A stretch of DNA of 32,803 nucleotides from Rhodobiaceae bacterium (GTDB taxonomy: Bacteria > Pseudomonadota > Alphaproteobacteria > Rhizobiales > Aestuariivirgaceae): NCBI GenBank assembly GCA_009885825.1, contig VFJY01000067.1, positions 1-32,803 of the forward strand, written 5' to 3'. The translations under genes and the position numbers were made by a program. The notes under the pieces are model-generated. The model was not told where the DNA came from and did not search any database. It saw nothing but the letters and a program-made list of their open reading frames with translations. Of the stretch, positions 16,315-32,803 are shown piece after piece (position 1 is the first letter of the stretch; each line of letters starts with the position of its first letter).

Positions 16315-16325
16315 GGAGAGATTTC

Positions 16326-16826: not shown

Positions 16827-19243
16827 ACGACATGTCCCCCAACAAGGCCGAACGCGAAGCCAAGCTCGAAGGCATGGGCTGCAGGCGCAAGCGCGTCGAA
16901 GACGTGCGCTTCACGCAAGGCAAAGGCAATTTCGTTGACGATATCAAGCTGCCAGGCATGTTGTTTGGCGATTTCGTGCGCTCGCCCTATGCCCACGCGC
17001 GCATCAAGGGCATCAACATCAAGAAAGCAATGAAGGTGCCGGGCGTGCTGGCCGTTCTCACCGCGACCGAGCTGAAGGGCGTTAATCTCGCCTGGATGCC
17101 AACTCTGGCGGGCGACGTGCAAATGGTGCTGGCTGACGGCAAGGTGCTGTTCCAGAATCAGGAAGTCGCATTCGTTGTCGCTACCGACCGCTATGCGGCG
17201 GCCGATGGCGTTGAAGCGGTTGAAGTCGATTATGAAGCGCTCCCTGTGCTGGTTGATCCATTCAAGGCCATGGACAAGAACGCGCCAGTGCTGCGCGAAG
17301 ATTTGAAAGGCAAGACGAGTGGCGCCCATGGCCCCCGCAAACATCACAACCACATCTTCGAATGGACGATGGGCGACAAGGATCTGACCGAGGCCGCTTT
17401 CCGCAAGGCCGATGTCACAATCAAGGAACTGATCTCCTATCACCGCACCCATCCTTCGCCACTCGAAACCTGCCAGTCCGTGGCGTCCTTCGACAAGATC
17501 AAGGGCGAGCTCACGGTTTGGGGCACATTCCAGGCGCCGCACGTCATCCGCACCGTGGCGTCGCTGATTTCAACAATTCCGGAGCACAAGATCCACGTGA
17601 TTTCTCCAGACGTGGGAGGCGGCTTTGGCAACAAAGTTGGCGCTTATCCGGGCTACATCTGCTCGATTGTCGCATCCATAGTGACCGGCAAACCGGTTAA
17701 ATGGGTTGAGGACCGCATTGAAAACCTGACCGCCACCAGTTTCGCCCGCGACTATCACATGACAGCCGAAATCGCCGCCACCAAGGATGGCAAGGTGCAG
17801 GCCTTGCGCGTTCATGTGCTGGCCGACCATGGCGCGTTTGACGCCTGCGCCGACCCGTCAAAATGGCCGGCGGGGTTCTTCAACATTGTCACAGGCTCCT
17901 ATGATTTCCCAGTGGCCCATTGCGCGGTCGACGGCGTCTACACCAACAAGGCGCCGGGCGGCGTTGCCTACCGCTGCTCGTTCCGCGTCACCGAGGCGGC
18001 CTATTGCATCGAACGCGCCATGGACATTCTGGCGAAGAAGCTCAACATGGATCCGGCGGAACTGCGTTTGAAAAATTTCATCCGCCGCGACCAGTTCCCT
18101 TATCAGTCTGCCCTTGGCTGGGAATATGACTCCGGTGATTATCACACGGCCATGAAGCAGGGCATGGAAAAAATCGGCTATCCGGCGCTGCGTGAGGAGC
18201 AAAAACGCAAGCAGGCCGATTTCAAGGCAGGCAAGACCCGCGATATCATGGGGATCGGCGTTTCCTTCTTCACGGAAATCGTCGGCGCTGGTCCTTCAAA
18301 GAACTGCGACATTCTCGGCATCGCCATGTTCGACAGCTGCGAAATCCGCATCCACCCCACCGGGTCGGCGATTGCCCGCGTCGGCACCAAGTCAACCGGC
18401 CAGGCGCATGAAACAACGTGGGCCCAGATCATCGCCACTGAAATCGGCATACCTTCCGCCGACATCATGGTGGAAGAAGGCAATACCGACACCGCCCCTT
18501 ACGGTCTTGGCACCTATGGCTCGCGCTCAACGCCAGTTGCCGGCGCTGCCATCGCCATGGCCGCCCGCAAGATCAAGGCCAAGGCGCAAATGATCGCGGC
18601 CTACATGCTGGAAGTGCACGAGGGAGACCTGCAGTTTGATATTGACGGTTTCCGCGTCAAGGGACTGCCAGAGAAGTTCAAGTCGATGAAAGAAATCGCC
18701 TGGGCCGCCTATCACTCCGTGCCACCCGGCATGGAGCCAGGCCTCGAAGCCGTAAGCTATTACGACCCTCCCAACATGACCTATCCCTTCGGCGCCTATT
18801 TCTGCGTCATGGATATTGATGTTGACACGGGAGTCTACAAAATCCGCCGCTTCTATGCGCTCGATGATTGCGGCACCCGCATCAACCCGATGGTCATCGA
18901 AGGCCAGGTGCACGGCGGCCTCACCGAGGCCTTCGCCATCGCCATGGGCCAGGAAATCCGTTACGACGCAGGCGGCAACGTGCTCACCGGCTCATTCATG
19001 GATTTCTTCATCCCGACCGCAGTGGAAACACCGGTTTGGGAAACCGATCATACTGTAACGCCATCACCCCATCACCCCATCGGCGCCAAAGGTGTTGGTG
19101 AAAGTCCAAACGTCGGAGGCGTGCCAGCATTTTCAAATGCCGTGAATGATGCCTTTGGATTCTTGGGGGCAACCCATATCCAGATGCCGCATGATTACTG
19201 GCGCAATTGGGAGGCTGCCAAATCGTTGGGCCTGATAAAATAA
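16823..19243 (+). CDS. coxL: carbon monoxide dehydrogenase large subunit, form I (Mo-Cu site)
   Basis: Catalytic subunit that oxidises CO to CO2 at a molybdenum-copper centre bound through molybdopterin cytosine dinucleotide. 806 residues, close to the 809 of O. carboxidovorans. The active-site loop is AYRCSFR (residues 382-388), with Cys385 as the copper-binding cysteine; this is the signature of form I enzymes, while form II reads AYRGAGR. The catalytic glutamate is Glu760 in [15 protein letters not shown] is the first molybdopterin-contact loop. The start is ATG 16823, which overlaps the coxS stop and follows GGAGG; the open frame upstream to 16733 lies inside coxS and is rejected. The sequence supports true CO oxidation rather than a xanthine or aldehyde role. 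Confidence 0.96.
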
Positions 19244-19245
19244 TC

Positions 19246-19293
19246 AAGGAGGAAATTCAACTGGGCCGGGGGCGGCCCGCGTGAATTTTTGAC
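19246..19293 (+). promoter_or_regulatory. Shine-Dalgarno, 36-nt hairpin and spacer before coxD
   Basis: AAGGAGG (19246-19252) stands 41 bases before the coxD ATG, too far to act in a linear mRNA. The bases between form a hairpin: AAATTCA (19253-19259) pairs with TGAATTT (19282-19288) and GGGCCG (19263-19268) pairs with CGGCCC (19273-19278), with a small internal loop and a GGGG tetraloop. Folding leaves only TTGAC between the Shine-Dalgarno and ATG. The stem is also followed by TTTTT (19286-19290), so it could be an attenuator that lowers coxDEF relative to coxMSL. No nearer in-frame start exists: a TGA lies in frame at 19282-19284. Confidence 0.65.
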
Positions 19294-20160
19294 ATGTCCA
19301 TCACCTTAGCCGATCTCAACAAGAAGCTGGCCGACGCCGGATACATCGCTGATCGCGAGCTCGCGATGGCGCTGCATCTGATGGAAATTTTGCGGCGCCC
19401 GCTTTTGCTCGAAGGCGAAGCGGGCGTTGGCAAAACCGAAGTGGCCAATGCCTTGGCCCATGTGCATGGCGCGAAACTCATCAGGCTCCAATGCTACGAA
19501 GGGCTGGATCGCTCGGAAGCGCTTTATGAGTGGAATTACCAGCGCCAGCTTCTGGCAATTCAGGCGCGCAACACACCAACCAACGAAGATGAAATTTTCT
19601 CGGAAAGATATCTCCTGGAGCGTCCCTTGCTGCAATCCATCCGGCAGGAAAAACCACCCGTGCTTCTGATTGACGAAATCGACCGCGCCGATGAAGAATT
19701 TGAGGCGTTCCTGCTGGAGCTCCTGTCAGATTTTCAGGTGAGCATTCCGGAGCTTGGAACCATCAAGGCAACCAGCATCCCGCGCGTGATCCTCACCTCA
19801 AACGGCACCCGTGAAATTTCCGACGCGCTGCGCCGCCGCTGCCTCTATCACTATGTGGATTTTCCCGATGTGGACCGCGAAGCCGCAATCCTGCAGCGCA
19901 GGATTCCCGACATCGGCGCAACATTTGCCTTGCAGATTGCCCGAGCCTTGGAAAAAATCCGCAAGGAGGATTTGCGAAAGAACCCCGGCGTCGCCGAAAC
20001 TCTCGATTGGGCGGCAGCGCTTCTGGGCCTCAATGTCAAAAACCTGCACAGCAATCCCGAAACCGTTTTCGACACCATGATGTGCCTGATCAAAACCCAG
20101 GAAGACAAATCCCGCTTCACCCGGGAAGTAGCAGAACGGGTTCTGGGCAAAGTCGCATGA
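19294..20160 (+). CDS. coxD: MoxR-type AAA+ ATPase CoxD
   Basis: Chaperone-like ATPase required in O. carboxidovorans for building the copper-sulfur part of the CO dehydrogenase active site. 288 residues. The Walker A motif is LLEGEAGVGKTE (residues ~39-50), Walker B is PVLLIDEIDRADEE, the sensor-1 region is RVILTSNGTREIS and an arginine-finger segment ALRRRCLYHYVDFPD follows. The gene starts at ATG 19294 after the unusual hairpin leader, and ends in an ATGA overlap with coxE. MoxR ATPases work with von Willebrand A proteins; CoxE is the partner here. Confidence 0.93.
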   Translation: MSITLADLNKKLADAGYIADRELAMALHLMEILRRPLLLEGEAGVGKTEVANALAHVHGAKLIRLQCYEGLDRSEALYEWNYQRQLLAIQARNTPTNEDEIFSERYLLERPLLQSIRQEKPPVLLIDEIDRADEEFEAFLLELLSDFQVSIPELGTIKATSIPRVILTSNGTREISDALRRRCLYHYVDFPDVDREAAILQRRIPDIGATFALQIARALEKIRKEDLRKNPGVAETLDWAAALLGLNVKNLHSNPETVFDTMMCLIKTQEDKSRFTREVAERVLGKVA

Positions 20161-21317
20161 ACGCCGTGCTCTTGCGGATTTCCGCGTTTTCGCAGCTCCT
20201 GCGAAACCACGGGTTTGTCGCAGGACTTGGCGAATGTGCCGATGCCGCAAGAATTATTGCAGAACTGGATAGCCAGCGTCCGGCTGATTTGCGCTCCGCC
20301 TTCAAAGCCCTGTTTTGCTCGCGGGTCTCTGACTGGAAAGAATTTGATGAACTGTTCAATTCCTTCTGGCTGGGCTCTGGAATGAAGAATTTGTTGAAGG
20401 TGGGTGGCGCGTCGCCAGTGTCCTCGCAATCAACCCTTTCGCCAATGGCCGGGAAAACCACGGGGCAAAACGATACCAGCGAACTTGCCGATCAAATTTC
20501 GGGTTCCGCGGGCCAGGAAATCGAAGATGGCGGCACGGGCAAGAGCGAAGGGGCGTCCAGCACCGAAACATCCGGCCACACGGATTTCAGAAAAATCGCT
20601 GATCCGATGGAGCTGGCAAAAGCCCATGCTGCTGCTGCGCAGCTCGCAAAGGCCATGCGCACCCGCCTCACGCGCCGCGACCGGGCCCGCGCCAAGGGCC
20701 GGCGCATTGATCTTCGCGCCACCATTCGCCACAGCGTCGGTCATGGTGGCATCCCGATTGAACTGAGCTTCCGCCAGCGCAAGACCAGGCCGCTGCGCCT
20801 GATCGTGCTGCTTGATGCTTCAGGCTCCATGCAGATGTACACAGCCGTTTTCACCCGTTTCATCCATGGTGTGCTGGATAGCTTCCACGAGGCGGAAGCC
20901 TTCGTCTTTCACACCAGGCTCGCTCACATATCAGCCGCCATGAAAGAGAAAAATGCAACCCGCGCCCTTGAACACATGTCGCTGATGACCCAGGGAGTGG
21001 GCGGCGGCACCCGCATCGGGGAAAGTCTTGCCACATTCAACAAATGGCACGCAAAACGCGTTCTAAATTCACGCAGCTGCGTAATGATCCTCTCGGATGG
21101 CTACGACACAGGAACGCCAGAGATTTTGGCGCGCGAACTCAAACGCCTGCGCCAGCGCTGCCGCCGCATAGCCTGGCTCAATCCCATGATGGGTTGGAAT
21201 GGTTATAAACCGGATGCCCGGGCCATGCAGGCAGCCTTGCCTTATCTTGATCTTTTTGCGCCAGCCCATAATCTCGAAAGCCTGGCAGCCCTTGAACCTT
21301 ATCTGGCGCGGCTGTGA
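20157..21317 (+). CDS. coxE: von Willebrand factor A domain protein CoxE
   Basis: Partner of the CoxD ATPase in maturation of CO dehydrogenase. 386 residues. A helical N-terminal domain, a low-complexity linker rich in Ser, Gly and Thr (about residues 85-140), a basic region (RTRLTRRDRARAKGRRID) and a C-terminal vWA domain. The metal-ion-dependent adhesion site is complete: DASGSM, the threonine in GGGTRIG and the aspartate in LSDGYD. The ATG at 20157 overlaps the coxD stop (ATGA). An open frame back to 20007 lies within coxD and is not the real start. Confidence 0.93.
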   Translation: MNAVLLRISAFSQLLRNHGFVAGLGECADAARIIAELDSQRPADLRSAFKALFCSRVSDWKEFDELFNSFWLGSGMKNLLKVGGASPVSSQSTLSPMAGKTTGQNDTSELADQISGSAGQEIEDGGTGKSEGASSTETSGHTDFRKIADPMELAKAHAAAAQLAKAMRTRLTRRDRARAKGRRIDLRATIRHSVGHGGIPIELSFRQRKTRPLRLIVLLDASGSMQMYTAVFTRFIHGVLDSFHEAEAFVFHTRLAHISAAMKEKNATRALEHMSLMTQGVGGGTRIGESLATFNKWHAKRVLNSRSCVMILSDGYDTGTPEILARELKRLRQRCRRIAWLNPMMGWNGYKPDARAMQAALPYLDLFAPAHNLESLAALEPYLARL

Positions 21318-21330
21318 CGGAGTGAAAGAA

Positions 21331-22149
21331 GTGCCCCACCAAAGCGATGTCATGTCGATCATTGCAGACTTGAAGCAGCGCGGCGAAGCTTTTGTGATCG
21401 CAACCGTGGTTCGCACGGTATCCGTGACGGCGGCCAAGGCCGGCGCCAAAGCGGTGATCATGCCAGATGGCAGGATATCGGGAGGATGGATCGGCGGCGG
21501 CTGCGCCAGGGGCGCCGTGTTGAAAGCCGTGCAAGATGTGTTGGCGGACGGCCAGCCAAGATTGATCTCAATTCAACCGCCCACTGAACTGGAAGCCCTT
21601 GGCATCGCACCCGGCGAAGCCCGCGAAGGTGTGCGGTTCGCAAGCAATTTCTGTCCCAGCCAGGGCACCATGGATATATTTGTGGAACCCGTGATGCCAC
21701 GTCCCAATCTTGTCATCTGCGGGGCAAGCCCGGTGGCTGTCGCCCTGTCGCGCCTCGCCGCAGTCATGGGCTATGCCGTCACCGCAGTAGCCCCCCAAGG
21801 CGAGCAGCAGGCCTTCGAAACAGCAGACGCCCGCATCGAAGGCTATGCCCTGCCAGTTGCCGACGCCGCCAGGCGTTTTGTCATTGTTTCCACCCAGGGC
21901 AAGGGCGATGAAGCAGCGCTTCGCGCCATCCTTGATATCGACGCAGACTATAAAGCCTTTGTCGGCAGCCGCCGCAAGATGGCATCCATTCGGGCGAAAT
22001 TTATGGCAGACGGCGTCTCAGCGGAAGCCCTGGATCCTATCAAGGCCCCAGCCGGGATTGATATAGGGGCCATATCTCCAGAAGAAATAGCGCTTTCCAT
22101 TATTGCCGAGATTACCGCGCTGCGCCGCCAAAAAATCCGGGCGGGATAA
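21331..22149 (+). CDS. coxF: XdhC/CoxI-family molybdenum cofactor maturation protein CoxF
   Basis: Expected to help insert or sulfurate the molybdenum cofactor of CO dehydrogenase. The N-terminal XdhC/CoxI domain holds FVIATVVRTVSVTAAKAGAKAVI and GWIGGGCARGAVL (residues ~15-70). The C-terminal Rossmann-like domain begins NLVICGASPVAVALSRLAAVMGYAV and contains the AFVGSRRK motif of XdhC. About 272 residues. GTG at 21331 has GGAG eight bases upstream and is preferred; GTG 21322 and ATG 21352 are alternatives. It follows coxE by 13 bp and appears to be the last cox gene: no coxG, coxH, coxI or coxK follows. In O. carboxidovorans coxF and coxI are both of this type. Confidence 0.88.
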   Translation: MPHQSDVMSIIADLKQRGEAFVIATVVRTVSVTAAKAGAKAVIMPDGRISGGWIGGGCARGAVLKAVQDVLADGQPRLISIQPPTELEALGIAPGEAREGVRFASNFCPSQGTMDIFVEPVMPRPNLVICGASPVAVALSRLAAVMGYAVTAVAPQGEQQAFETADARIEGYALPVADAARRFVIVSTQGKGDEAALRAILDIDADYKAFVGSRRKMASIRAKFMADGVSAEALDPIKAPAGIDIGAISPEEIALSIIAEITALRRQKIRAG

Positions 22150-22337: not shown

Positions 22338-23258
22338 TTGGAACTGAAGTGGCTCGAAGACTTCCTGGCCGTCGCCAACAGCGGGAATTTCTCGCGTGCC
22401 GCCGAGGCGCGAAATGTAACGCAGCCAGCCTTCAGCCGCAGGCTCAAGGCCCTCGAGGTGTGGATTGGCGTGCCGCTGCTCGACCGTGGCAGCTACCCCA
22501 TTACGCTCACACCTGCCGGCGAAAAGTTATTGCCGGTGGCTGAGCGGGTGGTCCGCGAATTGCGCACGAGCCGCGATGACGTGCGGGCGAGTTCGACGGT
22601 TTCGCGGTCGATGCTGAAGTTCGCCATGCCCCATTCGCTTGCGGTCGATTTTTTTCCCGCCTGGTGGCAGACCGTGAGCGACAAACAAGCCAATGCCGCC
22701 GCAAAGGTGATTGCCGACAATCTGCATGATTGTGTGGAGCTGTTGCTGTATGGCGGCTGCCAGTTTCTTCTGTGCTATCGCAATGAGGCGGTGTCCAACC
22801 CGGTCACATCCAGCGGGTTCTCCGGCATCGCAGTCGATAGCGACACACTTATTGCGGTATCAGCGCCCGATGGGTCCGGCAGGCCACGCCATATGCTGAA
22901 GCCCCACATCAGCACGTCCGTGCCTTTTCTGAATTATGCCCCGGATGCCTTTCTGGGCAAGGTGACAGCCAGCCTGCTGAGCGCTACACCCAACCAGTAC
23001 AATCTGACGCTTTGTTATGAGAGCGCATTCGCTGAAGCCGTTCGGGCACAAACACTTGCTGGCGCAGGGGTCGCCTGGTTGCCAAAGAAGTTGATTTCCG
23101 CCGATCTACAAGATGGCCGCCTTGTTTCCGCAGGCAGCAATTTGCCCGAGGCGCCCCTGGCGATATGGCTTTACCGCGCGGCGGAAAAGGCGGCAGCCAG
23201 CGTTGAAGGCATCTGGACCGCTGCCAAAACTCTGGCCGAACGCAGGGCCATGCCGTAG
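22338..23258 (+). CDS. LysR-family transcriptional regulator
   Basis: A 306-residue regulator with the usual N-terminal winged helix (MELKWLEDFLAVANSGNFSR, RAAEARNVTQPAFSRRLKALE) and a C-terminal effector domain from about residue 92. The start is TTG at 22338, seven bases after AGGA; the residues directly after it match the family start, so no ATG was missed. It lies between the cox cluster and the sulfonate genes, reads towards the latter and is separated from the racemase gene by 81 bp, so it most likely controls the sulfonate genes with a sulfonate or pathway intermediate as inducer. The effector is inference; regulation of cox cannot be excluded. Confidence 0.9.
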   Translation: MELKWLEDFLAVANSGNFSRAAEARNVTQPAFSRRLKALEVWIGVPLLDRGSYPITLTPAGEKLLPVAERVVRELRTSRDDVRASSTVSRSMLKFAMPHSLAVDFFPAWWQTVSDKQANAAAKVIADNLHDCVELLLYGGCQFLLCYRNEAVSNPVTSSGFSGIAVDSDTLIAVSAPDGSGRPRHMLKPHISTSVPFLNYAPDAFLGKVTASLLSATPNQYNLTLCYESAFAEAVRAQTLAGAGVAWLPKKLISADLQDGRLVSAGSNLPEAPLAIWLYRAAEKAAASVEGIWTAAKTLAERRAMP

Positions 23259-23339
23259 GCACATAGTTTCATCCCAACTGCGCATTGGATAGCGGCAACG
23301 GTCTAAACTAGCCTTATGCCTTGAATTCAGGAAAGTCAC

Positions 23340-24062
23340 GTGAGCGACAACGGTGAATTGGTTGTGGGTGTAATTGGCGGGCTTGGCCCCGAGGCAACGC
23401 TTGATTTTTTTGGCAAGGTGCTGGTTCATTCAAAAGCCAAAAAGGACCAGGACCATATTCACCTGATCATCGAAAACAATCCAAAAACGCCAAACCGCAA
23501 TGATGCCATCGCGGGAAAGGGGATATCCCCCGGTCCCGCCCTCGCTGGAATGGCCGCCGCGCTTGATCGCGCAGGCGCGGATTTCATCGTGATGGCGTGC
23601 AACACCGCGCATGCTTTTGAAAACGCCATTCGCGCGGCAACGCCCAAACCCTTCATCAGCCTCATAGACGAAGTTGTGGACGAAGTCCGCGGCAGCTATC
23701 CCGATACGAAGCGCGTGGGCCTTCTTGCGGCCCAGGGCTGTCTGGACGCTGGCATCTATCACACGGCTTTTGCCAAGCAGGGTGTTGAGGTTCTGAATCC
23801 GGGCGAGAAATCACAGGCCAGATTCATGGAACTTCTTTACCGCATCAAGTCCGGGGAGCGCGGGGCTGATATCCGGCGCGCAATGCAGGAGCTGGGCGAA
23901 GAGCTCATTGCGGCAGGGGCCGAGATTTTAATTGCCGGCTGCACGGAAGTGCCGCTTGTGCTGACATCGGGTGAAAACACCAAGCCACTTGTTGATTCAA
24001 CCGACGTGCTGGCTCAACGCTGCGTGAAATATGCACGCCGCATCAAGCCACTGCCTGTTTAA
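23340..24062 (+). CDS. aspartate/glutamate racemase family protein; candidate cysteate racemase
   Basis: A PLP-independent racemase of about 240 residues. The family start GVIGGLGPEATLDFF, and both catalytic cysteines are present: Cys87 in MACNTAH and Cys201 in AGCTEVPL. The two-cysteine mechanism inverts the alpha carbon of acidic amino acids. Its neighbours are an HpsN-like dehydrogenase, an aminotransferase and a cysteate sulfo-lyase. Since cysteate is an isostere of aspartate, I infer that it may interconvert D- and L-cysteate; plain aspartate racemase is the main alternative. GTG at 23340 follows AGGAAAG with good spacing and an earlier start is not supported. The next gene begins 17 bp after. 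Confidence 0.85.
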   Translation: MSDNGELVVGVIGGLGPEATLDFFGKVLVHSKAKKDQDHIHLIIENNPKTPNRNDAIAGKGISPGPALAGMAAALDRAGADFIVMACNTAHAFENAIRAATPKPFISLIDEVVDEVRGSYPDTKRVGLLAAQGCLDAGIYHTAFAKQGVEVLNPGEKSQARFMELLYRIKSGERGADIRRAMQELGEELIAAGAEILIAGCTEVPLVLTSGENTKPLVDSTDVLAQRCVKYARRIKPLPV

Positions 24063-24079
24063 CCGGGAGACATCGTGCC

Positions 24080-25390
24080 ATGACCACAACCTATCTCAAG
24101 AAGGCCACCAAAACCGCCGCGACTGGGGATTCAGACACGCAAGCCACCGTGAGCGAGATGTTGCGGGCACTTAGGGAAGGCGGCGAAACAGCAGCCACAG
24201 ACTATGCCCGGAAGCTTGATGGCTGGGATGGCGAGATTATTGTCAGCCGCGAAAAAATTGAGGCGGCAACCAAGGCGTTGCCCGAGGGCATCAAGGACGA
24301 CATCCGTTTTGCGTGCGACCGCATCTGCGCTTTTGCCGCTCACCAGCGCGACTCGGTGCGTGAGTTTGAAGTTGATTTGATCGACGGCCTCGTCGCCGGC
24401 CAAAAAGTGATCCCCATCACCACGGCGGGTTGTTACGTGCCTGGTGGCCGCTATTCACACGCGGCATCCGCGTTGATGAGCGTCGGCACGGCGCGAGTGG
24501 CAGGTGTGCAGAACGTCATTGCCGCCACGCCATCACATAAGGATCGGGGCATCAATCCCGGCATTCTCTACGCCATGGATATTGCGGGCGCTGACACAAT
24601 TCTGGCGCTCGGCGGCGTGCAGGCGATCGCTGCCCTGACCTTTGGCTTGTTCACCAAGCAGCCGGCAGATATTGTTGTTGGTCCGGGAAACCGCTTTGTG
24701 GCTGAGGCCAAGCGCATGCTGTTTGGCCAAATTGGGATTGATGTTGTGGCTGGTCCAACCGAAACAATGGTGCTTGCCGATGATACCGCCGACGCGGCAA
24801 TCGTTGCCGCCGATCTGCTGGGCCAGGCCGAGCATGGGCCTGATTCTCCCGTGTGGCTCATTACCCTGTCGCGCAAGATTGGCGAAGACGTGATCGCCAT
24901 GATGCCGGGCATGATCGCGGCGCTGCCGGAGATCGCGCGTAAAGCCGCTGAAGCCGCCTGGCGCGATTATGGCGAGGTTATTCTGGTTGACAGCCGTGAA
25001 GAGGCTTGCGTGGTGAGCGATCAATATGCCTCCGAGCATTTGCATATTCAGGCCGCCGATCTGGGCTGGTGGCTTAAATCATTGCACAGCTATGGCTCGC
25101 TGTTTCTTGGCGAAGAAACCACCGTTGCCTTTGGCGACAAGTGTTCCGGCCCCAATCACATTTTGCCAACCAAAGGCGGCGGCCGCTACAGCGGCGGCTT
25201 GAGCGCCGCAAAGTTCCTGAAAGTTCTCACCTATCAGCGCATGACACGCGAAGCCAGCCGCATGGTTGCGCCTATTGCAGCGCGCATATCCCGCCTGGAA
25301 GGCATGGAGGCCCATGCCCGCACCGGCGATATTAGACTGGCCAAGTATTTTCCAGCCGAGAAATTCGAGCTGAAGCCTGCGGGACAATAA
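24080..25390 (+). CDS. histidinol dehydrogenase family enzyme, HpsN-like sulfonate dehydrogenase
   Basis: A zinc-dependent NAD dehydrogenase of the HisD fold, 436 residues. It resembles HpsN (sulfopropanediol 3-dehydrogenase) from its start (TYLKKA) through GCYVPGGRYSHAASALMSV, to the LEGMEAHARTGDIRLAKYFP end. HisD-type active residues are kept: Gln249 and His252 (GQAEHG), Glu319-His320 (ASEHL), Asp353 (FGDK) and His412 (EGMEAH). The family oxidises a primary alcohol through the aldehyde to the acid: HpsN makes 3-sulfolactate from DHPS, HisD makes histidine from the amino alcohol histidinol. Here DHPS or the amino alcohol cysteinolate are possible substrates. Real histidine synthesis is unlikely because no his genes are near. 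It stands after the racemase and 4 bp before the aminotransferase gene. Confidence 0.82.
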   Translation: MTTTYLKKATKTAATGDSDTQATVSEMLRALREGGETAATDYARKLDGWDGEIIVSREKIEAATKALPEGIKDDIRFACDRICAFAAHQRDSVREFEVDLIDGLVAGQKVIPITTAGCYVPGGRYSHAASALMSVGTARVAGVQNVIAATPSHKDRGINPGILYAMDIAGADTILALGGVQAIAALTFGLFTKQPADIVVGPGNRFVAEAKRMLFGQIGIDVVAGPTETMVLADDTADAAIVAADLLGQAEHGPDSPVWLITLSRKIGEDVIAMMPGMIAALPEIARKAAEAAWRDYGEVILVDSREEACVVSDQYASEHLHIQAADLGWWLKSLHSYGSLFLGEETTVAFGDKCSGPNHILPTKGGGRYSGGLSAAKFLKVLTYQRMTREASRMVAPIAARISRLEGMEAHARTGDIRLAKYFPAEKFELKPAGQ

Positions 25391-25394
25391 TGCC

Positions 25395-26603
25395 ATGACC
25401 GATGATCCACGCCTTGATCTCGATCTCAGTCTTCCCGGCCCAATTCCCGAAGAAGGAATTCAGCGCGCCATTGAAATCATGCGGAGCGGCAAGCTGCACC
25501 GCTATGGTGAGGACCGCACGGGCATTCCCGAAGCCACGGCCCTTGAGCAGGATTACGCCGCCTATATTGGCAGCAAGTATTGCGCTGCGCTGAATTCCTG
25601 CGGCGGCGCCATGTTTGTGGCACTCAAATGTGCCGGCGTGAAACCCGGCGACAAGGTGCTGATGAACACTTTCACGCTGGCGCCTGTGCCAGGCGCAGTG
25701 GCGCATGCAGGCGCGCAGCCTGTTTTCGTTGAAATCACCGATGAATACAAAATTGATCTTGCTGATCTTGACCGCAAGGCAGCGTCAAGCAGGGCCAAGG
25801 TGCTTTTGCTTTCTCACATGCGGGGGCACATCTGTGACATGGAGACACTTGTCGCAATCTGCGCCCGTCATGGCATCACGCTGATTGAGGATTGCGCCCA
25901 CACAATGGGCGCCAAATGGAACGGCAGATTTACCGGAACCTTTGGCGCCATCGGCTGTTTCAGCCTGCAGTCCTACAAGCATGCGAACGCCGGCGAAGGC
26001 GGATTGCTGGTGACCAATGATCCAGACATCGCAGCCAAAGCCATTCTCTATTCCGGCAGCTATATGCTTTATGCCCAACACAAGGCGCGGCCTGAGCTTG
26101 AATATTTTGAGAAGCACCGGGGCCACATTCCCAATTTCAGTCTGCGCATGTCAAACCTCGCGGCCGCCGTTGCACGTCCGCAAATTGGTTTGCTGGCCGA
26201 ACGCGCCAAAGTCTGGAATGAACGCTACCGGAAGCTGGCCGATGGCCTGGGCAGCATCCAGAACATCCGCATTCCACCCCGTCCAACCCGGGAGCAATTT
26301 GTTGCAAGCTCCATCCAGTTTTCGGTCAAGGGGCTGAGTGCTGCCGAGATGGATCTTTTTCTTGATGCCTCAGCCAGGCGCGGCGTGTTCATCAAGTGGT
26401 TCGGGCGCAAGCAGCCCCTGGGTTTCACAAGTGTGCACGACCATTGGGAATACGTAGAAGAAAAGCAAAACCTGCCACAGTCTGAGCGGGTTTTGAGCGA
26501 GGTCTGCGACATGCGCATTCCTTTGGCCTTGCCGCTGGAAAGCTGTGATACGATAGTGGCCGTCATCCGGCATTGCCTTGCGGACTATGCCAGTCCGGCA
26601 TGA
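25395..26603 (+). CDS. DegT/DnrJ/EryC1 family PLP aminotransferase
   Basis: A 402-residue fold-type I aminotransferase. The PLP lysine is Lys195 in SLQSYKHANAGEGG. The aspartate that contacts the pyridine nitrogen is in LIEDCAHTMGA, and the N-terminal ALNSCGGAMFVALKCAG segment forms the phosphate pocket. Members usually transaminate keto-sugars with glutamate. In this operon a sugar role is unexpected; the enzyme might aminate a 2-keto C3 sulfonate (sulfopyruvate, or hydroxyacetone-sulfonate to give cysteinolate), or run in reverse. This is inference from context. ATG at 25395 lies 4 bp after the dehydrogenase stop, indicating co-translation. Confidence 0.86.
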   Translation: MTDDPRLDLDLSLPGPIPEEGIQRAIEIMRSGKLHRYGEDRTGIPEATALEQDYAAYIGSKYCAALNSCGGAMFVALKCAGVKPGDKVLMNTFTLAPVPGAVAHAGAQPVFVEITDEYKIDLADLDRKAASSRAKVLLLSHMRGHICDMETLVAICARHGITLIEDCAHTMGAKWNGRFTGTFGAIGCFSLQSYKHANAGEGGLLVTNDPDIAAKAILYSGSYMLYAQHKARPELEYFEKHRGHIPNFSLRMSNLAAAVARPQIGLLAERAKVWNERYRKLADGLGSIQNIRIPPRPTREQFVASSIQFSVKGLSAAEMDLFLDASARRGVFIKWFGRKQPLGFTSVHDHWEYVEEKQNLPQSERVLSEVCDMRIPLALPLESCDTIVAVIRHCLADYASPA

Positions 26604-26621
26604 TTTTGTTCGTTCTTGGCA

Positions 26622-26651
26622 TTGGCCAGTGCGCAATTGGCTTCCTAAACT
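26622..26651 (+). promoter_or_regulatory. possible cuyA promoter
   Basis: TTGGCC (26622-26627) and TAAACT (26646-26651) stand 18 bp apart in the 84-bp gap before cuyA. It would allow cuyA to be expressed apart from the preceding genes. Confidence 0.35.
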
Positions 26652-26687
26652 GCCTCCATAACAAGAGATTTTTGGGAGCCCTGCGAG

Positions 26688-27698
26688 ATGCATTTAGCCC
26701 GATTTCCCCGCGTGCGCCTCGGGCACTTGCCTACTCCATTGGAAGCCATGCCCAATCTTTCGAAGCTTCTGGGCGGTCCCAACCTTTACGTTAAACGCGA
26801 CGATTGCACCGGCCTTTCCTCGGGCGGCAACAAGACCCGCAAGCTCGAATTCCTGATGGCGGATGCCCTGCAAAAAGGCGCTGATACCGTTATCACGCAG
26901 GGCGCAGTTCAATCGAACCACGCGCGCCAAACTGCCGCCGCGGCGGCCAAGCTCGGCCTGAAATGCCAGATACTTCTGGAAAACCGCACCGGCAGCAACG
27001 CCGTCGATTACTGCGGTTCCGGCAACGTGCTTCTCGACCATCTGCATGGCGCTCCAACGCGCATGTTCCCCGGCGGCACCGACATGAATGCCGCCATGGA
27101 AAAGGTTGCCGATGAAGTTCGCGCCAAGGGTGGCAAGCCCTATGTTATCGTAGGCGGCGGCTCGAATGCCATCGGCGCCCTGGGTTACGTCAACTGCGCT
27201 ATTGAATTGGTGGCGCAGGCCAACGACATGAATTTGCGCATTGATCATCTCGTCCATGCAACCGGAAGTGCTGGCACTCAAGCTGGCCTTGTGGCTGGCC
27301 TCGAGGGTTTGCGCAGCCACATTCCCGTTCTGGGAATTGGGGTTCGTGCGCCGCGTCCCCAGCAGGAGGAAAATGTTTACAAACTTGCATGCCTGACAGC
27401 GGATCACATGGACATGTCGGGCTGTGTCGCGCGCGAGCGTGTTGTCGCCAACTGCGACTATGTTGGAGCCGGCTATGGCATTCCAACCGATGGCATGATC
27501 GAGGCAATCAACATTTTGGCTCGCACAGAGGCTATTCTGCTTGATCCTGTGTATTCGGGAAAAGGCATGGCTGGACTCATCGATTTGTGCCGCAAGGGCC
27601 ATTTCAAGAAAACCGACAATGTCGTATTCCTGCATACAGGCGGCAGCGTCGCCCTGTTTGGCTACAATGGAATTTTTGAGCCGACCCGGCCAAACTGA
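26688..27698 (+). CDS. cuyA: L-cysteate sulfo-lyase (CuyA-like)
   Basis: PLP enzyme that cleaves L-cysteate to pyruvate, ammonium and sulfite. The 336-residue sequence follows the CuyA of Ruegeria pomeroyi closely as I remember it: MHLARFPR at the start, [27 protein letters not shown] with the PLP Lys49, [53 protein letters not shown], the [18 protein letters not shown] segment, and the end [21 protein letters not shown]. Relatives are D-cysteine desulfhydrase and ACC deaminase, which share the fold. The sulfonate context (tauABC-type importer, putative sulfite exporter, HpsN-like enzyme) favours cysteate. ATG at 26688 has GGGAG ~12 bases upstream and GCGAG adjacent. The sequence cannot prove the stereochemistry of the substrate. 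Confidence 0.83.
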
Positions 27699-27784
27699 GG
27701 CTGACGTTGGAGTCTGGATTTAGCAAGCTGGCGGAGATCAGTGATACAATGGGAAATTAACAAACAGCATAAGGGAGAAAATCT

Positions 27785-28777
27785 ATGCTCGGAAGACGTA
27801 AAGTACTTGGAACTATCGCTGCAATCTTGTTGGCAACAGTCAGCAGCACCGCAGCCATGGCGGAAAAAGTTGTGATCGGCCATTTCGGCACCCCGATCCC
27901 GATGCAGGCAGCGGCCGCTGCCGGCGAATTTGAAAAAGCCACCGGTTGGGAAATCGAATGGCGCAAGTTTGGCTCAGGCGCTGAAATCATCGCGGCAATG
28001 GCCTCCGGCGATCTCAAGATTTCTGAGCTCGGCTCATCGCCACTTGCCATTGGCGCTTCGCAGGGCGTCGACTATCAGCTCTTTGCAATCTCCAACATCA
28101 TCGGCGAAGCTGAATCGCTGATTGGCCGCAAGGACTCAGGTGTCATGAAGGTTGAAGACCTCAAGGGCAAGAAAGTTGGCGTTCCTTTGGGCTCCACCGC
28201 GCACTACTCCTTGATGGGTGCCATCAAGAATGCTGGTCTGGCGCCTGGAGACGTTGAAGTGATTGGCATGAAGCCCGATCAGATCGTGGCCGCTTGGGAT
28301 CAAGGACAGATCGACGCTACCTTCATTTGGGAACCAGCCAAAGGCAAGGCCATGAAGACAGGCACCCTCATTATGGCGGCCAATCAGGTTGCTGGTGCTC
28401 CAACGTTTGACGGCTGGGTAGTTAACACCGAATTTGCTGCTGCCAACCAGGAATTCATGGTGAAATTCCTCAAGGCACTTGATGCTGCAAATGCTGCCTA
28501 CACCTCCAATCCCGATGCTTGGACAGTTGACTCAGCGCAGGTCAAAGCCATTGCAGAACGCACTGGCTCTCCCGCCGAAGAGGTACCTGCAGCGTTGAAA
28601 GGCTATGGCTTTCCATCGCTCAAGGATATGGCTTCAGCTGATTGGCTTGGTGGCGGCAATCAATCCAACATGTTGGCGACTGCCAAGTTCCTGATGGAAA
28701 ACAAGCGTGTTGACGCCGTGCTCGACGACTACTCAAAATTCGTCAATGCGGAGTTCCTCGCCGCAGCGATGAAGTAG
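27785..28777 (+). CDS. tauA: TauA-like sulfonate ABC transporter substrate-binding protein
   Basis: Periplasmic binding protein of a sulfonate importer, 330 residues. A signal peptide (MLGRRKVLGTIAAILLATVS, then STAAMA with likely cleavage before EKV). The mature part resembles TauA: WRKFGSGAEIIAAMASGDLKISELGSSPLAIGASQG, VGVPLGSTAHYSLMGAIKNAGL, and DQIVAAWDQGQIDATFIWEPA. The start at 27785 follows AAGGGAG. No taurine genes (tpa, xsc, tauD) are near, so the ligand is more likely cysteate or another C3 sulfonate than taurine. A GC-rich hairpin separates it from the ATPase gene, as expected for a binding protein that is made in excess. Confidence 0.9.
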   Translation: MLGRRKVLGTIAAILLATVSSTAAMAEKVVIGHFGTPIPMQAAAAAGEFEKATGWEIEWRKFGSGAEIIAAMASGDLKISELGSSPLAIGASQGVDYQLFAISNIIGEAESLIGRKDSGVMKVEDLKGKKVGVPLGSTAHYSLMGAIKNAGLAPGDVEVIGMKPDQIVAAWDQGQIDATFIWEPAKGKAMKTGTLIMAANQVAGAPTFDGWVVNTEFAAANQEFMVKFLKALDAANAAYTSNPDAWTVDSAQVKAIAERTGSPAEEVPAALKGYGFPSLKDMASADWLGGGNQSNMLATAKFLMENKRVDAVLDDYSKFVNAEFLAAAMK

Positions 28778-28797
28778 TCATCCCGAACACGCCACTA

Positions 28798-28825
28798 CCC
28801 ACCCCGCCGATGCTGGCGGGGTGGG
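28798..28825 (+). terminator. strong hairpin between tauA and tauB
   Basis: CCCACCCCGCC (28798-28808) and GGCGGGGTGGG (28815-28825) form a perfect 11-bp stem with a GATGCT loop. Only a short CTTT follows, so it is a partial terminator or 3' stabiliser of the tauA message rather than a full stop before tauB. Confidence 0.75.
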
Positions 28826-28852
28826 CTTTGCACACTTGCATTGGGGGACGAT

Positions 28853-29656
28853 ATGGGAAGCCTTCACGTTGACCGCGTATCAGTTGAGTTTCCGGCGGGG
28901 CGGCATGCGCCGGTCGTTGTTGCGCTCAAAGAAGTTGACCTCAAAATACAACCTGGAGAATTTGTTGTAGCTCTCGGCGCTTCAGGCTGTGGCAAGTCAA
29001 CACTGCTGAACCTGCTGGCGGGATTTCTGTCGCCTTCGCAGGGGCAAATCAAGCTCAATGACGCAGTTGTTTCAGGGCCGGGGGCGGATCGGGCGGTGGT
29101 TTTTCAAAAGCATGCCCTGTTGCCATGGCTCAACGTCATTGACAACGTGGCGTTCGGCCTCAAGCTTCGCGGCATGGGAAAATCCGCGCGCTATGATACG
29201 GCGCGCAAGCATCTCGTTCATCTTGGCCTTGGCGCGTTTGAAACCCATCCAGTTTATCAACTGTCTGGCGGCATGCAGCAGCGCGTCGGCATTGCGCGCG
29301 CGCTCGCCAGCGATCCTGAAATCCTGTTGATGGATGAGCCCCTGGGCGCCCTTGACGCCCTGACGCGCGAAAAAGCGCAGGAGCTGATCATTCGCATCTG
29401 GAAGGACACGTCCAAGATGGTGTTCTTTATCACCCATAGCGTCGAGGAGGCGCTTTTCATGGGGACAAGACTTATCGTCATGTCGCCAAGACCCGGCCGC
29501 ATAACCCACACGTTTGACCTCGACTTCGGCAGGCGATTTCTCGCGGGCGCCGATGCGCGAACCGTGAAAGCATCGCCCGATTTCATCAAGATGCGCGAGC
29601 AGGTTCTCAAAATCATATTCGGCGATGAAGAAGCCGCGGGAGGCGATCATGTCTGA
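28853..29656 (+). CDS. tauB: TauB-like sulfonate ABC transporter ATPase
   Basis: Cytoplasmic ATPase of the importer, 267 residues. Walker A GASGCGKST, Q-loop VVFQKHALLPWLNV, signature LSGGMQQRVGIARAL, Walker B ILLMDEPLGALD and switch His in FFITHSVEEALFM are all intact. The ATG at 28853 is preceded by GGGGGA; a TTG at 28841 in the same frame is less likely. Its end overlaps the tauC start by 8 bases. Confidence 0.93.
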   Translation: MGSLHVDRVSVEFPAGRHAPVVVALKEVDLKIQPGEFVVALGASGCGKSTLLNLLAGFLSPSQGQIKLNDAVVSGPGADRAVVFQKHALLPWLNVIDNVAFGLKLRGMGKSARYDTARKHLVHLGLGAFETHPVYQLSGGMQQRVGIARALASDPEILLMDEPLGALDALTREKAQELIIRIWKDTSKMVFFITHSVEEALFMGTRLIVMSPRPGRITHTFDLDFGRRFLAGADARTVKASPDFIKMREQVLKIIFGDEEAAGGDHV

Positions 29657-30509
29657 CAGCAAAGAACCAGCGAGCAAGTCATTCCTCGATTCCATCTTCA
29701 AGATCAGGCCGACGAGGCCCGGAGAAGTCTATGGCGTTCCCGGTCAGGGCGACAGCCTGATGATCAGCGCCATTTCGGGCATCGCCATTATTGGGTTCTG
29801 GGCGCTTGCAACATCGATGGGCTGGATTAAACCCCTGTTCCTGCCTTCACCTGTGGCGATTTTCCAGAAATTCATTCAGGTCGCGACCGAGGGCTTCGCG
29901 AACTACACTCTGCTCGAGCACACATGGATCAGCGTGCTCCGCGTGTTTGGCGCTTTGGCGCTGGCTTGCGCAACAGCAATCCCTGTGGGCCTTGCCATGG
30001 GCATGAGCCGGGTTATGCGCGGTGTGTTTGATCCGCCGATTGAGTTCTATCGCCCGGTTCCGCCGCTTGCCTATTTGCCGCTGATGATTGTGTGGTTCGG
30101 CATTGGCGAGCTTTCGAAGGTCTTGCTGATATTTCTCGCGATATTTGCGCCCGTTGCCATCGGCACCCGATCAGGCGTGCGTTCGGCCGCCATCGAGCAG
30201 GTTCATGCGGCTTACTCCCTTGGCGCAACCCCCTGGCAGGTTTTGACGCAGATTATCCTTCCCGCCGCGCTGCCGGAGATCATCACAGCCACGCGCATCG
30301 GCATGGGGGTTGGCTGGACAACACTTGTGGCTGCTGAAATGGTGGCGGCGACGAGCGGCATCGGCTTCATGGTTCTTTCCGCTTCCCAGTTCCTGCAGAC
30401 CTCGACCGTGATCATGGGCATCTTTATCATTGCCGCAATTGCCTATGCGTTTGATCTCCTGATGCGGTTCCTTGAACGCAAACTCGTTCCCTGGAAAGGC
30501 TTCGCCTGA
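29649..30509 (+). CDS. tauC: TauC-like sulfonate ABC transporter permease
   Basis: Inner-membrane permease of the importer, 286 residues. A hydrophilic N-terminal stretch of about 45 residues, then six predicted helices. The EAA-type loop that contacts the ATPase is visible as EQVHAAYSLGATPWQVLTQIILPAALPEIITATRIG. ATG at 29649, preceded by GGGAGG, lies inside the tauB end; the longer frame from 29625 would start deep in tauB and is not favoured. Followed 4 bp later by the putative sulfite exporter gene. Confidence 0.92.
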   Translation: MSDSKEPASKSFLDSIFKIRPTRPGEVYGVPGQGDSLMISAISGIAIIGFWALATSMGWIKPLFLPSPVAIFQKFIQVATEGFANYTLLEHTWISVLRVFGALALACATAIPVGLAMGMSRVMRGVFDPPIEFYRPVPPLAYLPLMIVWFGIGELSKVLLIFLAIFAPVAIGTRSGVRSAAIEQVHAAYSLGATPWQVLTQIILPAALPEIITATRIGMGVGWTTLVAAEMVAATSGIGFMVLSASQFLQTSTVIMGIFIIAAIAYAFDLLMRFLERKLVPWKGFA

Positions 30510-30513
30510 GCCC

Positions 30514-31509
30514 ATGATCGCAGCCTGGTCGGCATCGGCGCGGACTCTCTTTCCGGGCGTCATCGCCAGCGTGACTGTCGCTATCGCCGCGGTGTTCCTC
30601 AACGAGCACTATGGCGCACCCGCCATGCTGTTTGCCTTGCTGCTCGGCTTGTCGTTCAAGTTCCTGTCCGAAGAGGGGCCTTGCGTTGACGGCATAATTA
30701 TGTCGTCAACCACAATCCTGCGCGTGGGCGTAGCCCTGCTGGGCTTCCGGATCACGATGGACCAAATGATGCAACTGGGTCCATGGACCATCCTGTCGAT
30801 TGCCGCATCCGTTGCCGTGATCATCGGGCTTGGGTTGCTGCTGGCGCGCGTCTTGAAGCTGGAATGGCAACTGGGGCTATTGACTGGCGGGGCTGTTGGC
30901 ATCTGCGGAGCAGCAGCAGCCCTCACCATTGCGGCTTTGCTGCCGCGCAGTGAGGAAACATCGCGCTGGACGCTTTTCACCGTCGTAGGCGTTACCGCCC
31001 TCAGCACTTTGGCGATGATTTTCTATCCCGCCATTGCGATGGTTCTGCAACTCGGCCCGCAGGATGCCGGCTTCTTTTTCGGCGCAACAATCCATGACGT
31101 GGCCCAGGTCATGGGCGCAGGCTATGCCGTATCGGAAGATACAGGCGACACAGCAGCCTTGATCAAGATGATGCGTGTTACCATGCTGGTGCCGGTGGTA
31201 ATTGCCTGCACCATCTTCATAAAACAACCGGCAGGCGGCACCGGTTCATGGCGCAACCCCTTGCCATGGTTTGTCATCCTGTTTGCAGCCTTTGTGGGGA
31301 TCAACAGCGCCGGCGCCATTCCGCCTTTCGTGGTTGACCAACTCTCTTCCGCCTCGCGGTGGTGCCTGATTGTCGGCATAGCCGCCATGGGCATGCGAAC
31401 CAGTTTCAAAGATGTCCTCAATATCGGCGGCCGGGCGATTGCTCTTATCTGCATTGAGACAGTGGCGCTAGCCGCCATTGTCCTGGAAACCATCCGCATT
31501 ACAAGCTGA
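30514..31509 (+). CDS. YeiH/UPF0324 family putative sulfite exporter (CuyZ-like)
   Basis: Integral membrane protein, 331 residues, about ten helices, of the YeiH/UPF0324 family (often annotated putative sulfate exporter). Typical motifs are LLGLSFKFLSEE, LRVGVALLGFRIT, GAVGICGAAAALTIAALLP, and the GATIHDVAQVMGAGYAVS segment. Members next to sulfo-lyase genes (CuyZ and relatives) are thought to export the sulfite that C-S cleavage releases. The position directly after tauC in a cuyA cluster supports that role, which is inferred and not proven. ATG 30514 is preferred over the in-frame ATG at 30472 inside tauC. It is the last gene of the cluster; no sulfite dehydrogenase (sorAB) is seen. Confidence 0.87.
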   Translation: MIAAWSASARTLFPGVIASVTVAIAAVFLNEHYGAPAMLFALLLGLSFKFLSEEGPCVDGIIMSSTTILRVGVALLGFRITMDQMMQLGPWTILSIAASVAVIIGLGLLLARVLKLEWQLGLLTGGAVGICGAAAALTIAALLPRSEETSRWTLFTVVGVTALSTLAMIFYPAIAMVLQLGPQDAGFFFGATIHDVAQVMGAGYAVSEDTGDTAALIKMMRVTMLVPVVIACTIFIKQPAGGTGSWRNPLPWFVILFAAFVGINSAGAIPPFVVDQLSSASRWCLIVGIAAMGMRTSFKDVLNIGGRAIALICIETVALAAIVLETIRITS

Positions 31510-31663: not shown

Positions 31664-32803
31664 CTATTCAATCTGGCGGCGCGGCTGCCTGAACAGGCCG
31701 GAGAATGATGCGACCATTCTCGGCAGAAGGGCCACGGGCTGCGGCGTTGGCCGGCTCACGGGCGCGGCCAGGGCGCCAAGCAAGGAGACGACCAGCTCTT
31801 CCGTGCCGCCGATATCCTCGTGCAGGATGCCGTGACGCTTTGATGGGATCATGTGCAGCGATTTCTCAAGCGATCCGATCTGGCTGTGAATGAGCCTGGC
31901 GCTGGCCGGATCGACGGCGGGATCATCCGTGCCCTGAATAATTGCAACCGGGCATTTGATCTCAGGCAGGCTGGCCTCCAGCGCATCGATCACCTTGCGC
32001 AGCTCGACAAGGGCGCGCACTGGCATATGACGATATTCGAATTGGGGATGATCAGGTTCCGTCAGATGAAATGGCTTGACGCCGTCTTGCGCATAGACCC
32101 ATTCAGCAAGGCGGTTGATGCCGTGATAGAGCGGCGCGTATTTGACATTCTGGTCACGAAACTTGAGCGGGGCCGAGACCGCCACGACGCCGCGAAGCCC
32201 CGGCGGCCATGATGCCGCCACTTGCAGCGCCAGCGACGCCCCCGTGCCAAAACCCGCAAGCAGCACAGTTTCACTCAGATGAGACATGATCTCGTAACCG
32301 CGCCGCACGGAAGCGAGCCAGTCCTGCCAGTTTCGTTCGCGCAGGTCCCATGGCGAAGTTCCATGGCCTTTTAGCCGCACCCCAAGGACAGGATGGCCCT
32401 GATCGAACAGACGCTGGGCGAGTTTGCGCAGGGAAGCCGGGTTGGCCAGAAAGCCATGCGCGAGTACGACGCCTGATTTGCTTGGCGTCTCGGGTATCAG
32501 CAGAAATGGTTCGCCATTATCGCCTGCCGTTTCCAGCCGATTGATCATGGCATGGCGGGCTTCGGCATATTTTTGCCTGCTGTGCGTCCGGCTGCGCAGC
32601 TCGTCGTCAAAAAGCAATTTTGCCGCAGTCTCACCGGACGCCGCCACGGCGCGCTCCACGATCTTGATGACGTTCGTGAGCAGGGCGATTTCATTGGCGT
32701 AAACGCGTATAACATTTTCGAGGCGGGGATCGCGCTGGCCATTGCCGCCATGAATTGATGGCAGCAGGCGGTAATGGCGGGGAGTGATTTCAATCAGATT
32801 GGC
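31664..32803 (-). CDS. alpha/beta hydrolase-fold protein without the nucleophilic serine; N-terminus beyond right edge
   Basis: The frame is open from the right edge; the visible 379 residues start ANLIEITPRHYRLLP and no start codon is certain (a GTG at 32659 is internal). After a helical ~85-residue lead comes the hydrolase domain: VVLAHGFLANPASLRKLAQR (oxyanion region), LRLKGHG-like VRLKGHGTSPWD, then the nucleophile elbow, which reads AGFGTGASLAL. The canonical Gly-x-Ser-x-Gly has Gly in the Ser position (codon GGC at 32246-32248; AGC would be Ser). Candidate Asp (GTDDPAVDP) and His (KRHGILHED) are kept. The end contains a proline-rich tail. It is therefore either inactive, uses another nucleophile, or suffered a recent point change. 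It may be a lysophospholipase- or carboxylesterase-like protein by fold; substrate unknown. Confidence 0.8.
   Translation of the reverse strand, partial: ANLIEITPRHYRLLPSIHGGNGQRDPRLENVIRVYANEIALLTNVIKIVERAVAASGETAAKLLFDDELRSRTHSRQKYAEARHAMINRLETAGDNGEPFLLIPETPSKSGVVLAHGFLANPASLRKLAQRLFDQGHPVLGVRLKGHGTSPWDLRERNWQDWLASVRRGYEIMSHLSETVLLAGFGTGASLALQVAASWPPGLRGVVAVSAPLKFRDQNVKYAPLYHGINRLAEWVYAQDGVKPFHLTEPDHPQFEYRHMPVRALVELRKVIDALEASLPEIKCPVAIIQGTDDPAVDPASARLIHSQIGSLEKSLHMIPSKRHGILHEDIGGTEELVVSLLGALAAPVSRPTPQPVALLPRMVASFSGLFRQPRRQIE

Follow-up and report, generated by a model that had tools for sequence, protein, structure and literature searches.

The stretch analysed here, hereafter the window, comprises 32,803 nucleotides from a Rhodobiaceae bacterium of the Alphaproteobacteria (assembly GCA_009885825.1, contig VFJY01000067.1, positions 1 to 32,803). 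Between positions 22338 and 31509 it carries nine genes, all on the plus strand and each an open frame with a family match in profile searches, which form a conserved sulfonate catabolic module whose parts are known and whose combination is new. Judging from the gene content, we read this cluster, on balance, as an operon for the breakdown of a C3 amino-sulfonate, with cysteinolate (2-amino-3-hydroxypropane-1-sulfonate) as the most likely substrate. The nine genes, two of which encode pyridoxal-phosphate (PLP) enzymes, are:

22338–23258, plus strand: LysR-family regulator, the first gene (PF00126, 74 bits; PF03466, 45.9 bits)
23340–24062, plus strand: CuyB-type cysteate racemase (NF052483, 268.7 bits; cut-off 190)
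24080–25390, plus strand: HpsN-type (HisD-fold) zinc dehydrogenase, a proposed amino-alcohol sulfonate dehydrogenase (8v35, 573.9 bits)
25395–26603, plus strand: DegT/DnrJ/EryC1/StrS-fold PLP enzyme (PF01041, 209.9 bits)
26688–27698, plus strand: CuyA cysteate sulfo-lyase, a PLP enzyme (NF052482, 564.8 bits; cut-off 450)
27785–28777, plus strand: TauA-type periplasmic binding protein (TIGR01729, 329.9 bits; cut-off 304.25)
28841–29656, plus strand: TauB-type ABC ATPase (NF008421, 338 bits, below the cut-off of 357; TTG start uncertain)
29625–30509, plus strand: TauC-type ABC permease (NF007545, 288.2 bits, below the cut-off of 342)
30472–31509, plus strand: YeiH-type putative sulfite exporter (PF03601, 217.5 bits, above cut-off; TTG start uncertain)

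An earlier, sequence-only reading of the window had described a one-strand set of racemase, dehydrogenase, DegT, CuyA, TauABC and YeiH-type genes, which the open frames and family matches bear out; the LysR gene was absent from its list. A LysR homologue with 63–65% identity likewise heads two of the related loci described below (L003 and L004). The N-terminus of TauA appears signal-like by eye. The frame of the YeiH-type protein overlaps that of TauC, and its score against TIGR00698 (138.9 bits) stays below the cut-off of this curated YeiH family (232.6 bits). Promoter and terminator scans of the cluster yielded nothing better than shuffle level.

The dehydrogenase and the cysteate enzymes

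The dehydrogenase exceeds the cut-off of TIGR00069, a model named hisD in NCBIfam (421.2 bits; cut-off 243.8). Among solved structures, its best match was HpsN of Cupriavidus pinatubonensis (CpHpsN, 8v35) with the score listed above, compared to 248.1 bits for the best histidinol dehydrogenase, and it is 59% identical to C. pinatubonensis HpsN over 428 positions. The CpHpsN study, in the part available to us (PMC11382572), gives GRY(A/S)H as the HpsN motif and His126, Lys353, Asp352, Gln248, His251, Glu318, His319, and His411 as the active site. The window enzyme carries GRYSH together with the sulfonate-binding H127, and its zinc and catalytic residues Q249, H252, E319, H320, D353, K354, and H412 are all identical to those of CpHpsN. 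A second TIGR00069 match in the same genome (contig C220, 438 bits) lacks the motif histidine and the lysine and, by its sequence, is likely the true HisD of this genome. Phylogeny and motif both speak against HisD, in line with the HpsN-like assignment of the sequence-only reading, and on these sequence features we place the dehydrogenase in the family of the sulfonate enzyme HpsN.

While the window enzyme and CpHpsN share the HisD fold family, the GRY(A/S)H motif, and the zinc and sulfonate ligands, they differ in their surroundings. The Cupriavidus cluster contains hpsO, an ADH-type (alcohol dehydrogenase) gene, and UxaA-type (SuyAB) genes, whereas neither hpsO nor hpsP is among the nine genes of the window, in which the dehydrogenase is accompanied by DegT, CuyA, and a racemase instead. 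As in the hpsRNOUP-suyAB cluster for 2,3-dihydroxypropane-1-sulfonate (DHPS), an HpsN-type enzyme would serve as the gate towards a sulfo-lyase; in contrast, the C2 enzymes, the lyase, and the importer are different ones.

As in known cysteate dissimilation, CuyA and CuyB, both above their NCBIfam cut-offs, occur here together with a YeiH-type exporter. The racemase also exceeds the broader amino-acid-racemase model TIGR00035 (188.3 bits; cut-off 93.1), and the motifs around its Cys87 (ACNTAHAF) and Cys201 (AGCTEV), which we take to be the catalytic pair, align with those of aspartate racemase 1jfl. Unlike cysteate dissimilation by CuyA and CuyB, the window cluster adds the HpsN-type dehydrogenase and DegT, so that cysteate probably serves as an intermediate and not as the sole substrate. 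According to the available part of PMC11382572, CuyB interconverts L- and D-cysteate and CuyA prefers D-cysteate, and the NCBIfam name of the CuyA model is likewise D-cysteate sulfo-lyase. The sequence-only reading had the racemase convert D- to L-cysteate ahead of CuyA, a direction that contradicts this preference: a dehydrogenase yielding D-cysteate would need no racemase at all. Because CuyA prefers D-cysteate, a need for the racemase arises if the dehydrogenase gives L-cysteate, as the geometry of CpHpsN would have it.

Recurrence of the gene set and local exclusion of hpsO and hpsP

The linkage of racemase, HpsN-like dehydrogenase, DegT, and CuyA, whose conservation the sequence-only reading had made a test of its proposal, recurs in Alpha-, Beta-, and Gammaproteobacteria and in Thermodesulfobacteriota, and chance co-location can be dismissed because the set is found across so many genomes. 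Locus L003 contains the entire window set in the same order, and L004 keeps this order as far as TauC, after which the remaining 2.8 kb of its contig contain no exporter match. CuyA, DegT, racemase, and dehydrogenase are present in rearranged form in Exilibacterium (L009), Desulfotignum (L011), and four genomes of the window's class (L046, L091, L110, and L111), and Desulfobacula (L013) has the set without a counted racemase. On plasmids, CuyA, DegT, racemase, and a HisD-type gene occurred together in eight of the nine DegT records examined (from 11 matches), namely in Leisingera methylohalidivorans, Paracoccus seriniphilus, Pseudomonas sp. MPC6, Ancylobacter pratisalsi, Polaromonas sp. P1-6 (CuyA and dehydrogenase being frames found by search, without annotation), Paracoccus alcaliphilus, Mesorhizobium terrae, and Shinella sumterensis. 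The set was not present in a plasmid record of Roseovarius W115 (DegT identity 37%). Ruegeria sp. SCSIO 43209 carries cuyA, the racemase, and a hisD-type gene without DegT, and the plasmid cuyA of R. pomeroyi is accompanied by an exporter, with neither a racemase nor DegT nor hisD annotated within 9 kb of it.

In order to compare gene neighbourhoods, genes within 8 kb of the dehydrogenase were labelled by BLAST identity (DegT >45%, CuyA >50%, racemase >29%, HpsO- and HpsP-like >30%, SuyB and sulfolactate-dehydrogenase-like >35%) at 68 loci, excluding the window; the hpsO, hpsP, and sulfolactate dehydrogenase labels may take in other family members. The SlcC query itself reaches 234.9 bits, short of the 500-bit threshold of NF040650, and the SlcD query is an FMN-dependent (flavin mononucleotide) dehydrogenase from an hpsN-comE locus rather than a characterised enzyme. 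L035 and L036, which duplicate L004 and L003, were removed, and the 68 do not include the Polaromonas locus L144, which has no dehydrogenase frame >900 bases. DegT was found near the dehydrogenase at 19 loci and an hpsO- or hpsP-like gene at 31, and both were never found together (one-sided Fisher test, 5e-7). Plasmid loci chosen through DegT make up five of these 19, and we therefore repeated the count for the 61 loci to which the dehydrogenase search alone had led, with the same outcome (DegT 14, hpsO/hpsP-like 30, both 0; Fisher 1e-5). The Fisher value of the full count overstates independence, as the genomes of the class are related. CuyA is near 16 of the 68 dehydrogenases, 14 of which also have DegT and none hpsO or hpsP. 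A labelled sulfolactate dehydrogenase or SuyB was observed at none of the 19 DegT-linked loci and ComE at one (L047). Twelve of the 68 loci showed no labelled neighbour.

A maximum-likelihood tree of 69 rows revealed at least six context changes among 53 labelled rows. In this count, rows with just CuyA or a racemase were assigned to the DegT context and rows with just ComE or a sulfolactate dehydrogenase to the hpsOP context, and the four rows L048, L050, L052, and L114, which are distant and have hpsO only, were omitted. Comparing DegT with any hpsO/hpsP after restoring these four rows gave 7 changes in 51 rows, and comparing DegT with rows carrying both hpsO and hpsP gave 6 changes in 41 rows. 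Since the context switches six or seven times on the tree, DegT-linked and hpsOP-linked dehydrogenases are not two clades. Single residues were rejected as context markers: Gln or His at CpHpsN position 321 is found in all 23 rows linked to DegT, CuyA, or racemase but also in 7 of 27 hpsOP-type rows, and positions 48 and 240 overlap between both kinds of dehydrogenase.

In the DegT protein, K195, R36, and R143 are present in all 39 aligned rows and R251 and R374 in 38 (the remaining row being a gapped fragment). Arg143-Gly-His is present in 39 of 39 family rows, including three outlying ones, and these arginines may bind the sulfonate. The nearest matches of its AlphaFold2 model in Foldseek were DegT-fold sugar and cyclitol aminotransferases; the mean pLDDT (predicted local distance difference test) of the model is 76.5, with low values at 33–41, 193–200, and 340–359. 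The protein has both the PF01041 match and the PLP-lysine of a DegT aminotransferase, with K195 inside the low-confidence stretch 193–200. Its fold and the position of the catalytic lysine are shared with BtrR, perosamine synthase, and AHBA (3-amino-5-hydroxybenzoate) synthase of the DegT/DnrJ/EryC1/StrS family. In contrast, the Arg143 position is Tyr or Ala in the five solved relatives shown (two of which are one protein), and the window enzyme sits in a sulfonate gene context, with no sugar-nucleotide gene among the nine of the cluster. At L047 (6635–10261), the dehydrogenase, DegT, a 171-amino-acid frame (7191–7703), and ComE (sulfopyruvate decarboxylase beta; 237.7 bits, cut-off 221.5) follow each other on one strand. 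This arrangement suggests that DegT can lead to sulfopyruvate, and L047 is possibly a decarboxylating variant of the module without CuyA. L084 and L092 have, of the genes sought, just the dehydrogenase, DegT, and TauABC. For stand-alone DegT genes, no partner gene was common to more than four of 17 loci.

Co-occurrence was examined in a sample of 385 related genomes of the class, in which all counts are lower bounds (E up to 1e-60 for DegT and 1e-130 for HpsN-type). DegT was detected in at least 22 genomes, HpsN-type dehydrogenases in at least 32, and CuyA and CuyB above cut-off in at least 34 and 22, respectively. DegT and HpsN-type shared at least 19 genomes compared to 1.8 expected (18 of 21 compared to 1.7 when the window's own genome was left out), whereas at least 11 genomes were shared by DegT and CuyA, at least 6 by DegT and CuyB, and at least 15 each by HpsN-type and CuyA and by CuyA and CuyB. 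As DegT follows HpsN across genomes, its role would lie at the level of the substrate or product of HpsN rather than that of CuyA.

The window's own genome (98.08% complete) gave no match to SlcC. Its best ComE match reached 40.7 bits (cut-off 221.5), and the best SuyB-like, SlcD-like, and HpsP-like matches were weak (33%, 32%, and 32% identity; HpsO was not searched for). By these searches, the genome appears to have no convincing sulfolactate or sulfopyruvate route. The absence of Xsc (sulfoacetaldehyde acetyltransferase) noted in the sequence-only reading holds for the window and fails for the genome, in which Xsc is above cut-off on another contig (G000:C138:14998-16722, 930.3 bits). Given this Xsc, the genome may contain a separate taurine-type route.

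Molybdenum hydroxylase genes (15454–22149, plus strand) lie directly upstream of the cluster and comprise FAD-binding (flavin adenine dinucleotide) and molybdopterin subunits (PF00941, PF02738/PF20256), an AAA ATPase, a frame with a DASGS motif that is VWA-like by eye, and an XdhC-like protein. They are preceded by an MHYT sensor fused to a LytTR DNA-binding domain (14084–15313, plus strand). On the other side, an alpha/beta hydrolase gene (31664–32659, minus strand) is convergent with the exporter gene. A different alpha/beta hydrolase family, 53–56% identical among its members, is found near cuyA or a hisD-type gene in Paracoccus alcaliphilus (L145:15015-15791), Shinella (L190:14009-14809), and Phaeobacter (L167:2247-3020), where it might release a sulfonate from an ester or amide conjugate; the idea that the window hydrolase is the same enzyme was rejected, as there was no significant match.

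A proposed cysteinolate pathway and its alternatives

In the pathway that we infer for this organism, TauABC would import cysteinolate and the HpsN-type dehydrogenase would convert its CH2OH carbon in a four-electron oxidation, giving cysteate. From the geometry of CpHpsN, the product is expected to be the R form, L-cysteate (R-cysteinolate to L-cysteate). CuyB would turn L-cysteate into D-cysteate, CuyA would cleave D-cysteate to pyruvate, ammonia, and sulfite, and the YeiH-type protein would export the sulfite. DegT would act at C2, interconverting cysteinolate and 2-oxo-3-hydroxypropanesulfonate or cysteate and sulfopyruvate, and could thereby open the module to the other enantiomer or the ketone, the role of HpsO and HpsP for DHPS. 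A more speculative extension, to which we give rather less credence, is that the cluster is a dedicated cysteinolate pathway, that DegT is a new sulfonate-specific C2 PLP enzyme which inverts or transaminates cysteinolate via 2-oxo-3-hydroxypropanesulfonate in place of HpsO/HpsP, and that the dehydrogenase has repeatedly switched between DHPS and cysteinolate by swapping its C2 partner genes, not its active site.

The gene content appears to suit cysteinolate, the substrate put first in the sequence-only reading, better than DHPS. Sulfolactate, as a product of the dehydrogenase, would find no enzyme among those recognised in the genome searches to take it onward, whereas cysteate would be followed at once by CuyB and CuyA; without a convincing sulfolactate or sulfopyruvate route in the genome, a cysteate-forming substrate fits better than DHPS. 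CpHpsN shows a strong preference for R-DHPS and binds L-cysteate essentially like R-sulfolactate (PMC11382572, section 9 for the latter, in the available part), which indicates that the HpsN fold accepts an amino group at C2.

Several observations weigh against this reading. Across 18 active-site positions, dehydrogenases linked to DegT, CuyA, or racemase did not separate from those linked to hpsO/hpsP, so that by sequence DHPS may be the substrate instead. Natural cysteinolate is named D in the titles of older papers, and D-cysteinolate, as worked out from the Cahn-Ingold-Prelog rules, is the (S) form and hence not a direct substrate of an R-specific enzyme; this would in turn leave room for DegT to handle the other hand or the ketone. 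A straight route from cysteinolate to cysteate leaves DegT without explanation. As cysteinolic acid has been reported inside heterotrophic bacteria, its biosynthesis not being established in the available parts of the reports (PMC8319176, PMC9695272), DegT could be biosynthetic. The linkage also has gaps: L014 and L147 have CuyA and racemase without DegT, and the DegT-linked loci L084, L092, L007, L041, and L047 have no CuyA, some of them being on short contigs. A dehydrogenase 86–87% identical to that of the window (L005:10001-11302) has solute-binding-protein and hydantoinase genes as neighbours, and the 21 kb of L005 gave no match to DegT, CuyA, or the racemase. Moreover, of the 22 genomes with DegT, 19 also have HpsN, compared to 11 with CuyA and 6 with CuyB, and 12 of the 19 genomes with DegT and HpsN have hpsO/hpsP-like genes at the HpsN locus and DegT elsewhere (in the others, DegT is linked in six, including the window's own genome, and nothing is labelled in one). 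By both counts, DegT is not specific to a CuyA route.

The alternative that survives best, which we nevertheless consider unlikely, is a DHPS route ending in CuyA, in which R-DHPS would be oxidised to R-sulfolactate by the HpsN-type enzyme, then to sulfopyruvate by a dehydrogenase encoded elsewhere, and aminated to L-cysteate by DegT ahead of CuyB and CuyA. In this case, DegT would fill the place of the missing sulfopyruvate aminotransferase. This CuyA route is described in the available part of PMC11382572, where the genes of R. pomeroyi for the aminotransferase and the racemase are given as unknown, and both the active-site positions, the same as in the DHPS enzyme, and the association of DegT with HpsN-type genes (19 of its 22 genomes) are consistent with it. 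However, none of the 19 DegT-linked loci has a labelled sulfolactate dehydrogenase or hpsO/hpsP-like genes nearby, no convincing sulfolactate dehydrogenase was found in the own genome, and its HpsP-like matches are weak.

Somewhat less probable still is the import of 2-oxo-3-hydroxypropanesulfonate or wrong-hand cysteinolate, with DegT as the entry enzyme making R-cysteinolate. The nearest solved relatives of DegT include enzymes acting on keto-sugars and inosose, and the local mutual exclusion of DegT and hpsO/hpsP would agree with such a role, whereas the DegT-ComE pairing at L047 points to sulfopyruvate, not the ketone. It is improbable that the cluster merely degrades cysteate with CuyA, CuyB, importer, and exporter while carrying along the dehydrogenase and DegT for an unrelated substrate: cuyA does occur with neither a hisD-type gene nor DegT annotated close by (R. 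pomeroyi, Phaeobacter, Sulfitobacter), but the compact linkage recurs in distant taxa and co-occurrence extends across the 385 genomes. An ordinary histidinol dehydrogenase, in spite of the TIGR00069 score, is rejected as highly implausible in view of the structure scores, the HpsN motif with Lys354, and the separate HisD of the genome.

The remark of the sequence-only reading that no described pathway has this exact set is matched by the open-licence papers listed in the literature searches, among which no such pathway was found and none describes, in its title or the start of its abstract, bacterial genes for cysteinolate breakdown. Cysteinolic acid occurs widely as a solute in marine microalgae, and its cellular content can exceed that of dimethylsulfoniopropionate (available part of PMC8703288). 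If cysteinolate is the substrate, the module would provide testable genes for its breakdown by bacteria and markers for metagenomes. It would also explain why the annotations 'hisD', 'D-cysteine desulfhydrase', 'amino acid racemase', and 'DegT aminotransferase' occur together on plasmids of Paracoccus, Mesorhizobium, Shinella, Leisingera, Ancylobacter, and Pseudomonas.

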